A stretch of DNA of 39,457 nt from a virus, in the IMG/VR virus record IMGVR_UViG_3300050014_000266, positions 1 through 39,457 of that record; one strand, 5' to 3'. Positions 3,051 to 5,512 of this stretch are shown in pieces. A program made the translations under genes and the position numbers. Positions within the stretch are counted from its first letter, which is position 1. Each line of letters begins with the position of its first letter. A model generated the notes under the pieces. That model was not told where the DNA came from. It saw only the letters and a list, made by a program, of their open reading frames with translations, and did not search any database.

Positions 3051-3416
3051 CTACACCTCGCTCGTGTCGAGTTGTCCGTCGATGTGCAGGCACACCGGCC
3101 GCCTTGGGATCGTCTCCGTGCGGCTCGGCGGCCACGATGCCACCTTGGCGGCGTGGACCCAGCGGCGGCGCTGGAAGCCGACGTACTTGTACCCGCGCTT
3201 GGGGTCGCCAACGATCACGTCGCCCAAGTTTCGTGCCGCCTCGACCACGTCGCGCACGGCCTCACAATCAGCGGAGAAGATGCGCCCGAGCTGACACCAT
3301 TCGCCGCGATGAAGCCGCAGATAGTCGATGACGATGTCGGGGAATGAGGCGTCCCAACGGGCGTTGTATCCCTCGGGCGGCATGTACTTGGCGCCGAACT
3401 CGGGGGTGGCACTCAC
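3051..3416 (-). CDS. Winged-helix-like protein
   Basis: 121 residues. Residues 25-80 (FPDIVIDYLRLHRGEWCQLG, then a second helix and GDVIVGDPKRGYKYVGF) look like a helix-turn-helix with a beta wing. The C-terminal part is basic. The GTG start overlaps the stop of the broken methyltransferase as GTGA. Possibly a small regulator; not assigned to a family. Confidence 0.5.
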   Translation of the reverse strand: MSATPEFGAKYMPPEGYNARWDASFPDIVIDYLRLHRGEWCQLGRIFSADCEAVRDVVEAARNLGDVIVGDPKRGYKYVGFQRRRWVHAAKVASWPPSRTETIPRRPVCLHIDGQLDTSEV

Positions 3417-3532
3417 GTTATAGCCATCTGCATCTGGTCCCGGTGCGGCGCAATCCTACGCTCTGCCATCGCCGCGTACTCGGGGTTTAACTCGACGCCG
3501 ACGAAGTTGCGGCGGTCGCTTCCGTCGCCACC

Positions 3533-3557
3533 TTGTGGTATAATCACATCACCACAA
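3533..3557 (+). promoter_or_regulatory. Promoter of the LAGLIDADG gene with inverted repeat
   Basis: Extended -10 sequence TGGTATAAT (3536-3544), flanked by a perfect 7-base inverted repeat TTGTGGT (3533-3539) and ACCACAA (3551-3557). No good -35 is seen, as is usual for extended -10 promoters. The repeat covers the likely transcription start, so it could be an operator. Confidence 0.55.
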
Positions 3558-3571
3558 TGAAAGGACATGGG

Positions 3572-4072
3572 GTGACTAGGAAAACGGACATCGCGTACAT
3601 CGCCGGGATACTCGACGGCGAGGGGTACATCGGCGTGAAACGAATGACCGTGCGGAAGGACGCTGCGAATCGCAGTTACCATGCGCGAATCCAGGTCCGC
3701 ATGGTTGACGAGCCGGCCATCGCGTTTTTGGCCGAGACGCTGGGCGGTGCCTATTACCAAGAGAAGCCCAGCGCGACTCGCGGACGACCGCTGTACTGCT
3801 ACTCGGCATCCGACGCCTCGGCTGCCGCGATCCTGCGCACCGTGCTGCCGTACCTGCGCGTGAAGCGTGGCGCGGCGGACATCGTGCTTGAGCTTCGCGC
3901 CATGCAGGCGAACGCGGCCAAGCATCGGACGAAGGTCGTCGGCTATCGCAACTTCCCGAACAAGTACGGGACGGCGCGGCAGGTGCCGAACCTTGCGTAC
4001 TCGGACGAGTACATCGCTGGGTGTGAGCGCCTGTGGCTCGCAGCCAAGGCGTTCAATCGCGTCGGCGTCTGA
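3572..4072 (+). CDS. LAGLIDADG homing endonuclease
   Basis: 166 residues, the only convincing plus-strand gene. The single motif IAYIAGILDGEGYIGV at residues 7-22 is a LAGLIDADG helix, with E17 as the metal-binding acid, so the protein should act as a homodimer. A beta-rich region follows (YHARIQVRMVD; RPLYCYSASDASAAAILRTV). I prefer GTG 3572 because AAAGGA lies six bases upstream; ATG 3557 would add five residues. It sits inside a methyltransferase gene on the opposite strand and has its own promoter, as expected of a mobile endonuclease gene that does not depend on host-gene transcription. No intron or intein signature was seen. Confidence 0.85.
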   Translation: MTRKTDIAYIAGILDGEGYIGVKRMTVRKDAANRSYHARIQVRMVDEPAIAFLAETLGGAYYQEKPSATRGRPLYCYSASDASAAAILRTVLPYLRVKRGAADIVLELRAMQANAAKHRTKVVGYRNFPNKYGTARQVPNLAYSDEYIAGCERLWLAAKAFNRVGV

Positions 4073-4158
4073 CGGCGGGCTGGTGACGACGCAGTTGACG
4101 GACCCGGCTTTGAGCGTCGGCAGGATGTCGAAGACGGAGCCGACGACCACGCCGGCGC

Positions 4159-4497
4159 TCACCTGAGCTTCTCCCCACTCATCGCGATCGCGTCTTCAAG
4201 GCAGCGCAGGACAACGTACTCGCCGCCCTCGTTGGCGATCGTCTGCCGGAAACCGTCCTGCCAATCGCTGAGCCGCCCCTTGGCCGTCTTGACCTCGGCA
4301 AAGACGACGCGGCCTTTGCGCACACAAATGAGGTCGCTGATCCCCTTGTGCGCGCCGAGTCCCTGCTGGATGCGGATCACAAACCAGCCGGCGGCCCGCA
4401 GGTAGCCAGCACAGACGCGCAGGATGGCCGTTTCCGGCTGGCGGTGCGCTCCCTTGGCTTGGAGCTTGGCGACTTCGGCCGGGGACAAGGCGCTCAC
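4159..4497 (-). CDS. VRR-NUC domain nuclease
   Basis: 112 residues. QPETAILRVCAGYLRAAGWF then GISDLICVRKGRVVFAEVKT is the VRR-NUC fold of the PD-(D/E)XK superfamily, with D55 and E68-x-K70 as metal site. Such phage proteins are thought to be structure-specific or junction nucleases in replication and recombination. GTG 4497 overlaps the upstream stop as GTGA; the open frame continues upstream but has no ribosome site there. Confidence 0.85.
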   Translation of the reverse strand: MSALSPAEVAKLQAKGAHRQPETAILRVCAGYLRAAGWFVIRIQQGLGAHKGISDLICVRKGRVVFAEVKTAKGRLSDWQDGFRQTIANEGGEYVVLRCLEDAIAMSGEKLR

Positions 4498-4841
4498 TTG
4501 TGCTCGGCCTCTTGCGAGAAGTCGGCACCTGACAGTCGGGCACCTGACAGTCGGTATATCGCGCACAAGGCGGCGAGCATGCGTCTCCGCTCGCCCTCCA
4601 GTTCGCAGATGCGTGGCTCGACCACTTCCGCGTCGTAGGTCTTTCGCGCCTCCACTTGCGCCTCTAGAGCGGCGATGCGGGCGTCCTTGTCGGGGTGCTC
4701 GACCATGCCAGTCCGCACCGGCCATCCCGGCGCGCAGGAACAAGCAAGCGACCCGTGTTCCGGCCTGCCACAGAGGCGACAAGCGCGTGTCGGGATGGTG
4801 CCGGTGTTGCCCGCGCTGAAGCTGCCCCACCCGTTGTTCAC
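4494..4841 (-). CDS. Zinc-knuckle and coiled-coil protein
   Basis: 115 residues from GTG 4841 (GTGA overlap with the previous gene). CRLCG at about residue 20 and CSC at 33 may bind zinc; residues 50-95 (KDARIAALEAQVEARKTYDA) form a coiled coil. Near the end RLSGA is repeated twice from an exact 15-base tandem duplication. Function unknown. Confidence 0.55.
   Translation of the reverse strand: MNNGWGSFSAGNTGTIPTRACRLCGRPEHGSLACSCAPGWPVRTGMVEHPDKDARIAALEAQVEARKTYDAEVVEPRICELEGERRRMLAALCAIYRLSGARLSGADFSQEAEHK
4524..4553. repeat. 15-base exact tandem duplication
   Basis: GGCACCTGACAGTCG occurs twice head to tail inside the gene 4494-4841, duplicating the codons for RLSGA in frame. A recent slippage event is likely. 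Confidence 0.85.
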
Positions 4842-5512
4842 TTCTCCCCCTTCCGGACGCGGTTGCGAAGGTCGGCGAGATAGGTCGCGTCGGTGTCGAA
4901 GTCGGAGTTGAACGAGCCACGGAACTTCCAGTACCAGTCGCTTACTGCCAGCCGCGCTATCGCCTCCCACTCGTCGCGCTCGGCCTCTAGGGCGGGGATG
5001 CGCTTCCGTAACGTAAGGTAGCCGTCATGCTCAAAATCCCACCCACCTGGCGGATAACAGGCCATCACGCCTCCTCCTGGACGCGGTAGCGAGAGAAGGT
5101 GGTCAATACCCCTCTCCAGCTCGTCGCGCTCGGCCTCGAAATACTTCGTGTCTTTGATTGCTGCGTCGACGACCTTGAGGAGTTCGGCGTTCGCGGTCTC
5201 AGCTTGCTCGGCACGACCACGGAAAACGTCTGCCGCGTCTGCCAGGGCCTTCCTCCACGGCTCCATTGCCGCAAGCGCCTCCGCCCTCTCGTGCTCGGCC
5301 TGCAACGCAGATACGGCGATTTCACGCATCGTCTGATGTTCCTCCGCCCTCCCATGCTCGGCTTCGGCGAGGGCGATGAGTTCGGCGATGGCGGCGTCGC
5401 ACGTCTTGAGTGAGCGACCGTAGCCGCCATTGGCCTGCGTCGGGTGTTCGCGTTCTTCCTTCCACGCCTTCCACGCCTCTCCCGGTTCGGCCCATGTGGG
5501 GAAGTCAGTCAT
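4838..5512 (-). CDS. Coiled-coil protein of unknown function
   Basis: 224 residues. ATG 5512 has AAGGGGG upstream. The N-terminus is tryptophan-rich (FPTWAEPGEAWKAWKEERE); residues 40-130 are alanine- and glutamate-rich helix with coiled-coil character. The C-terminal part resembles phage early proteins with an EAERDEWEAIARLAVSDWYW segment. It ends in the operon with a GTGA overlap. No function recognised. Confidence 0.55.
   Translation of the reverse strand: MTDFPTWAEPGEAWKAWKEEREHPTQANGGYGRSLKTCDAAIAELIALAEAEHGRAEEHQTMREIAVSALQAEHERAEALAAMEPWRKALADAADVFRGRAEQAETANAELLKVVDAAIKDTKYFEAERDELERGIDHLLSLPRPGGGVMACYPPGGWDFEHDGYLTLRKRIPALEAERDEWEAIARLAVSDWYWKFRGSFNSDFDTDATYLADLRNRVRKGEK

Follow-up and report, generated by a model that had tools for sequence, protein, structure and literature searches.

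An antisense LAGLIDADG homing endonuclease at the catalytic codons of a viral DNA methyltransferase, and short stop-bearing insertions at the same codons in related loci

We analyzed a 39,457-base virus record over its whole length (the window) and find that a DNA methyltransferase gene is interrupted, at the codons for its TSPP motif, by a LAGLIDADG homing endonuclease gene on the opposite strand, and that the same endonuclease family occupies the same codons in related viral loci, most of which carry a few extra bases there. The reading we favor, at a probability of roughly 0.6, is that these loci are homing cassettes in which cutting of the carrier's own gene would be blocked by the short insertion and the insertion would be overcome in translation; by comparison with its relatives, the window is best read as a decayed copy of such a cassette. 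The parts of the window locus are given in Table 1.

Table 1. Features of the methyltransferase-endonuclease locus in the window
Feature	Positions	Strand	Description	Basis
249-codon open reading frame	3413-4162	-	Methyltransferase N-terminus, antisense strand of endonuclease, and C-terminal relic	Open reading frame list
Methyltransferase N-terminus ("copy 1")	4073-4162	-	First 30 codons, GTG start, last codons TSPP; 4162-4073 translates as MSAGVVVGSVFDILPTLKAGSVNCVVTSPP	psageK9 alignment, phrog_67
LAGLIDADG homing endonuclease gene	3557-4072	+	171 aa	phrog_5046, AlphaFold2, Foldseek, relatives
Putative deletion junction, endonuclease start to methyltransferase relic	3515-3556	-	Second N-terminus of the relatives missing
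C-terminal methyltransferase relic	3416-3514	-	33 codons, beginning RRNFVGVELNPEYAAMAERRI; stop 3413-3415	phrog_67, psageK9 alignment
Upstream neighbor, VRR-NUC/Holliday-junction-resolvase-like	4159-4524	-		Family scans of longer open reading frame 4159-4920

A sequence-only reading of this DNA had taken the two methyltransferase pieces to belong together, and they do: aligned with the intact methylase of phage psageK9, they correspond to residues 6-32 and 372-392 of 413, and phrog_67 (DNA methyltransferase) matches the 249-codon frame in two stretches (E = 5e-8), although Pfam matches nothing in it. The relic is in frame with the N-terminus by way of the endonuclease's antisense strand, and the minus frame is, as claimed, open through the whole insert. 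That reading was also right to place the interruption exactly at TSPP and the endonuclease stop (TGA, 4070-4072, plus strand) next to those codons; the single intervening base that it gave is not there, the stop being flush with TSPP (0 bases between). The loss of the catalytic region is likewise borne out: relative to psageK9, ∼340 methyltransferase residues are absent from the window, including all of motif I (FxGxG), and the window product does not bring together in one protein motifs IV (TSPPY) and I (FxGxG) of the N4/N6 DNA methyltransferases (PF01555). With four methyltransferase bodies as queries (E = 1e-3), no other methyltransferase of this family was found in the window. The stop of the VRR-NUC-like gene overlaps the methyltransferase start; a search for syntenic relatives through this neighbor gave two weak loci with no same-family methyltransferase adjoining, and among the close relatives of the window no undeleted form was found.

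The interrupting gene carries the LAGLIDADG helix motif IAGILDGEGYIG and matches phrog_5046 (E = 4e-21), with no Pfam match to the plus-strand gene. AlphaFold2, with eight relatives, gave a model with a pLDDT of 88.6, for which Foldseek returned I-MsoI (2fld, E = 8.7e-9) at the top and I-MsoI and I-CreI as the best PDB matches. On this predicted structure the plus-strand gene encodes a LAGLIDADG homing endonuclease with one motif and the I-CreI/I-MsoI fold, in agreement with the earlier assignment of an antisense LAGLIDADG gene; like those enzymes it has a single motif and ∼170 residues, whereas I-CreI and I-MsoI are intron-encoded and no intron was found here. The label of PHROG 5046, "HNH endonuclease," appears to be an error given the LAGLIDADG fold. 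ATG 3557 is preferred over a TTG at 3533 as the start codon, since alignments with the relatives (52-62% identity) begin near residue 6 of the ATG form. On the plus strand, positions 3536-3544 read TGGTATAAT, which by eye we take to be an extended -10-like motif; a sigma-70 scan found no promoter at the endonuclease start or the junction.

Searching viral contigs with the window protein returned 11 loci, and searching with the eight-member alignment gave 300, of which the best 80 were used. In 20 of these 80 the endonuclease lies in or beside an N4/N6 methyltransferase gene in the manner described here (L057, L085, and L103, also methyltransferase matches, were left out of the analysis), and in 14 of the 20 it lies at the codons joining TSPPY and W (TSPPY/W): L049-L056 and L058-L063, with L002, L003, L004, L031, L035, L036, and L038 being repeat extracts of contigs among these. 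Judged from the sequences, such recurrent occupation of the same codons by one endonuclease family is beyond chance. The endonuclease is antisense, as in the window, in nine of the 14 loci and sense in five, and the usual plan is a cut first N-terminus, the endonuclease, a complete second N-terminus with its own start codon, and the methyltransferase body. The first N-terminus is cut at a variable place, at TSPP in some loci and earlier in others (none is seen in L055), and the second is complete in every case; in six of nine loci compared, it is most like the first copy of its own locus.

Because the 14 related loci keep a methyltransferase body and a re-supplied N-terminus, we take the catalytic region of the window to have been lost secondarily, through a deletion that would have removed the second N-terminus and most of the enzyme and left the endonuclease behind. 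The sequence-only reading had proposed that the insertion replaced the gene; this describes the gutted enzyme of the window but not the general picture, in which body and second N-terminus are both present. The window has neither a second N-terminus nor an insertion at TSPPY/W, and its history is therefore read from its relatives.

In 12 of the 14 endonuclease-bearing loci, extra bases lie in the second copy between the codons for TSPPY (or TSPP) and those for WGLRDYG: four bases reading TGAC, TGAT, or TAAC in seven loci, TGAAT in L049 and L061, TAGTCG in L052, and a single T, giving UUU-C, in L058 and L059. The site is intact (TAYTGG) in the other two, L055 and L063. The comparison set comprised 80 methyltransferases retrieved by body sequence alone, 77 of them evaluable (left out were L251, which bears an endonuclease, and L285 and L290, which were not judgeable); here the site is altered in three (L317, L284, and L263, the last with TGAC), as against 12 of 14 in the endonuclease loci (Fisher P = 1e-10). 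An endonuclease of this family was found at intact TAYTGG sites in 0 of the 80 loci used out of at least 120 matches. The insert lengths observed overall are 1, 3, 4, 5, 6, and 8 nt, and L075 has an in-frame TAG as well.

The pattern TSPPY-TGAC-WG returned 12 stretches, every one of them a methyltransferase. When any four bases were allowed between TSPPY and WG in the viral contigs (viral_contigs), 15 stretches were returned, of which 14 are methyltransferases (12 distinct) and one, L034, is a chance match outside this class; all 14 methyltransferases read TGAC, TGAT, or TAAC, that is, a stop codon followed by a pyrimidine. A search for T(G/A)AY (TRAY) at the site returned 20 stretches, with one chance non-methyltransferase (L039) and 19 methyltransferases, 17 of them distinct after two repeats were removed (L022/L025 and L033/L037 are identical sequences, each pair counted once). 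Bacterial genomes (genome_contigs) gave four pattern matches, one a methyltransferase (L044) and three due to chance, so that with L044 and L053 there are 19 distinct TSPPY-T(G/A)AY-WG methyltransferases. A LAGLIDADG gene adjoins seven of the 19 and none lies near the other 12 (L040 and L044 were counted as endonuclease-free from pattern matches alone). By eye, HNH-like genes are seen directly upstream of LAGLIDADG-free TRAY methyltransferases at L020:43-726 and L033:6324-6638. In the four named phages examined among 60 matches listed of 352, the site is intact in all four and TRAY in none. L027 and L028 had been considered as a persistent TRAY clade; TGAC is present in two of 13 WGQR loci (L251-L263), which is therefore no proof of long persistence. 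Titles and abstract openings, over an incomplete range of journals, yielded no description of stop-bearing inserts at TSPPY of phage methyltransferases.

GGC encodes the glycine that follows TGG in 14 of 18 TRAY genes, compared with 13 of 80 intact genes (P = 1e-6); serine leans toward AGY and the first proline toward CCG in the same way, but not significantly. We infer that the GGC bias is a trace of the endonuclease target, roughly AGYCCGCCNTAY-TGGGGC, and CCGCCNTAYTGGGGC is predicted as a candidate cleavage substrate of the window endonuclease and its L050 relative.

In the mechanism that we propose from the position, fold, and family of the endonuclease, the enzyme would recognize the catalytic motif IV codons (TSPPYW-G) and its gene would be copied into cut alleles. 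An intact cassette runs from a remnant of the old N-terminus through the endonuclease, usually antisense, to a fresh N-terminus with its start, the short insertion at TSPPY/W, and the body. The carrier presumably cannot cut itself, because the insertion would part the two halves of the target, and the stop codon or frame change thereby placed within the active-site codons would have to be passed by ribosomes for enzyme to be made. At T(G/A)AY, a +1 shift would give TSPPY-(D/N)-WGLRDYG, or ribosomes might hop over 3-6 nt; inserts of 3, 5, and 6 nt need something other than a +1 shift, and the spread of lengths calls for different recoding events if ribosomes do not hop.

Several features of the sequences suggest recoding at these insertions. 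In 18 of the 19 TRAY genes the body is open over 233-630 codons (L044 runs to 233), and three +1-shifted products match N6_N4_Mtase in Pfam across the join (E = 1.5e-49, 2.1e-43, and 9.6e-36). The +1-shifted codon is always GAY or AAY, so that D or N is encoded, and the corresponding stretch of a solved N4-methyltransferase reads TSPPYN. A Shine-Dalgarno-like motif precedes 11 of 15 recoded starts; the figure for intact starts is 51 of 78, and for random 20-mers 21%. In the pair L058/L059, the 31-codon second N-terminus, which in both sits between endonuclease and insertion, shows purifying selection by its substitution pattern (12 synonymous changes over 23.5 sites versus 9 non-synonymous over 69.5, P = 0.0004); the endonucleases of the pair have dS 0.60 and dN 0.058, and the body contains no stops, where ∼5 would be expected after neutral drift of 0.2 substitutions per site (P = 0.004). 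The other pair in the selection test, L024/L026, is mosaic through recombination. Against recoding, UAY-UGA is not known as a slippery site, tRNA-Tyr pairing poorly with AYU, and the cassette reading as a whole is weakened by the intact sites of L055 and L063 and by the 12 TRAY genes that lack a nearby LAGLIDADG gene. In the +1 frameshift of the bacterial release factor 2 gene (prfB), UGA is likewise followed by C, and a shift by one base reads GAC (Asp); the P-site codon differs, UAY here and CUU there. Bypassing in T4 gene 60 uses matched take-off and landing codons; here TAY shares two of its three bases with GAY/AAY, AAT, or TAG, and in no class of insert all three.

These observations also bear on a rival account, unlikely in our judgment if deserving of close attention, in which the insertions are repair scars: genes cut at TSPPY/W would have been rejoined with extra bases, becoming uncuttable and leaving the methyltransferase dead, so that the endonuclease rides in dispensable, dying genes and the window is the end state. 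The TGAY in TAY-TGAY-TGG does resemble a duplicated 4-base overhang (AYTG) such as a LAGLIDADG enzyme could leave, but about half of the TRAY loci have different bases at the two Y positions, unlike a fresh duplication. The variable insert length fits repair, as does the true destruction of the enzyme in the window, and L022 has a further nonsense codon, TGG having become TGA. Recoded alleles are moreover scattered almost at random on the methyltransferase tree (18 changes versus a shuffled mean of 21.8), and many insertions may therefore be young and some of the genes dead. Against this, 18 of the 19 TRAY genes have bodies that are open over hundreds of codons, the second N-terminus retains its start codon, frame, and ribosome-binding-like motif, with the selection just described in L058/L059, and the antisense host frame is kept open in AT-rich viruses, which would be pointless for a dead gene.

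Each TTA, CTA, or TCA codon of an antisense endonuclease creates a host-frame stop, and expected numbers were computed from the codon usage of other open reading frames at the same loci (the reference being long, uncurated frames). The antisense endonucleases at the TSPPY site (nine scorable, window included; L051 left out) contain six host-frame stops where 36.1 are expected (P = 8e-10), and three scorable antisense genes further inside the methyltransferase contain none where 7.9 are expected; three scorable sense endonucleases contain five versus 7.8. The window alone, with none versus 1.9 expected, is weak. Antisense relatives avoid host-frame stops in AT-rich viruses too. Judged by these counts, the open frame of 249 codons is therefore a selected feature of the family and not merely a by-product of high GC content. 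Translation in the host sense may pass through the antisense strand of the endonuclease, which would account for the openness of this frame and for its frequent termination at the second start. Such termination is seen in L054 (TAATAA-CT-ATG) and L060 (GGATGATAA), and in L051 it falls nine bases before that start; these loci suggest translational coupling.

An open frame could also mean that the 249 codons of the window are a working fusion, the complement of the endonuclease forming an in-frame insert of a reduced methyltransferase. A single frame does join N-terminus, insert, and relic, and in L065, L069, L073, L075, and L076 the methyltransferase frame crosses an antisense LAGLIDADG gene uninterrupted, the enzyme resuming in phase beyond it. 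In the window product, however, nothing remains of the enzyme between TSPP and the final 33 codons, motif I included, and there is no Pfam match; the product cannot be a working enzyme, and we regard the fusion as very improbable.

A stronger form of the cassette reading, which we put forward tentatively and at somewhat less than even odds, is that of a mobile stop codon: the endonuclease would spread along with four inserted bases, T(G/A)AY, which render the gene uncuttable and are passed by a +1 shift or a hop, the insertion would also spread alone, and the antisense strand would be held open as translated host message. Spread without the endonuclease could occur if a cut allele were repaired from the second N-terminus and gained only the four bases. 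If true, immunity to homing would be bought by translational recoding inside the active site of an enzyme.

Still less probable than the fusion, to the point of being barely tenable, is a group I intron, perhaps degenerate, that carries an antisense endonuclease and whose splicing would restore TSPPYWG. Exons before group I introns end in U and the introns in G; here CCNCCNU would close the first exon and G the intron, and one of the endonuclease relatives lying antisense beside capsid genes weakly matches a group I intron (L098, 21 bits, E = 0.3). The flush endonuclease stop, however, leaves no room for an intron core, the putative intron would hold a complete second N-terminus with start codon, and a first exon is missing from endonuclease-free TRAY genes, L022 for example. 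Rfam searches are negative as well: at the gathering score, applied to the window, nine loci, and 13 further ones, no group I intron was found in the window, L002, L004, L031, L035, L036, or L038; with permissive E-values on 13 loci, no intron was found up to E = 0.5 in L050, L051, L053, L060, L058, or L073; and across all Rfam runs there was none at the methyltransferase sites. An intein is dismissed, the endonuclease lying on the strand opposite the host gene and the 249-codon frame having no Pfam splicing domain. The sequence-only reading had seen neither intron nor intein, and we concur. At L079, L082, L095, L098, L102, L108, L116, and comparable loci, a relative of the endonuclease is found in antisense orientation immediately upstream of what by eye is an N4-gp56-like major capsid gene; many of those in AT-rich viruses have 0-2 antisense stops versus 6-14 expected, and the weak L098 match suggests introns with antisense endonucleases at these capsid loci.

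The proposed cassette resembles known arrangements in part. As in T4, where the mobA insertion splits a conserved phage gene (PMC2988022) and the gene 60 insert is thought to protect against the nuclease (Atkins et al. 2016, PMC5009743), a homing endonuclease here splits a conserved phage gene, and an endonuclease beside a restarting host gene with an insert is found in 12 of the 14 relatives and not in the window. T4 has an HNH enzyme and one 50-nt insert whose bypassing was demonstrated by experiment, whereas here the enzyme is LAGLIDADG and mostly antisense, inserts of 1-8 nt fall at catalytic codons in many diverged methyltransferases, the N-terminus is duplicated, and recoding is proposed from the sequences. 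In Aeromonas phage Aeh1, the free-standing endonuclease mobE lies in a functionally critical region of nrdA (PMC2988022), from which two assembling polypeptides are made; we propose one polypeptide across the recoding site.

A hidden endonuclease in phage ShiLan likewise lies inside a phage methylase in another frame, with the methylase frame open and no intron or intein signals, but it is an HNH enzyme on the same strand and its insert is retained in the product; here the enzyme is LAGLIDADG and mostly on the opposite strand (in the window the host frame is open and the endonuclease antisense), and the host gene at TSPPY is restored by the second N-terminus. A lone LAGLIDADG endonuclease in methylases is noted in the ShiLan paper as well, and the words "antisense" and "opposite strand" do not occur there. 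Within the accessible parts of the sources, an antisense plan together with a minimal insert in catalytic codons appears in neither T4 mobA/gene 60 nor ShiLan. The cassettes would extend the T4 gene 60 pairing of endonuclease and skipped sequence to a widespread family in uncultured viruses. They also show a second means by which a homing gene can spare its host, namely by occupying the strand opposite an uninterrupted reading frame. Because the inserts are minimal (1-8 nt) and lie in catalytic codons, recoding would be open to small reporter constructs. Gene finders would split such methyltransferases or call them pseudogenes.

Other loci show related features. L317:1171-2610 is a TSPPY-TAG-WGLRD methyltransferase with an in-frame TAG and an HNH-like open reading frame (1664-2263) on the same strand in another frame, and L284:900-960 has TAGCGTGC (TAG plus five bases) between TSPPYW and GLRDY, the body continuing in another frame. 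L014 (Gordonia phage Sitar), L018, and L013 (Mycobacterium phage DotProduct) have a LAGLIDADG match within a methylase that by eye is of the Cytosine-C5 type, in an overlapping frame on the same strand. Finally, the TRAY methyltransferase at L027:2719-4714 contains ∼195 extra in-frame residues that are absent from its relative L028.
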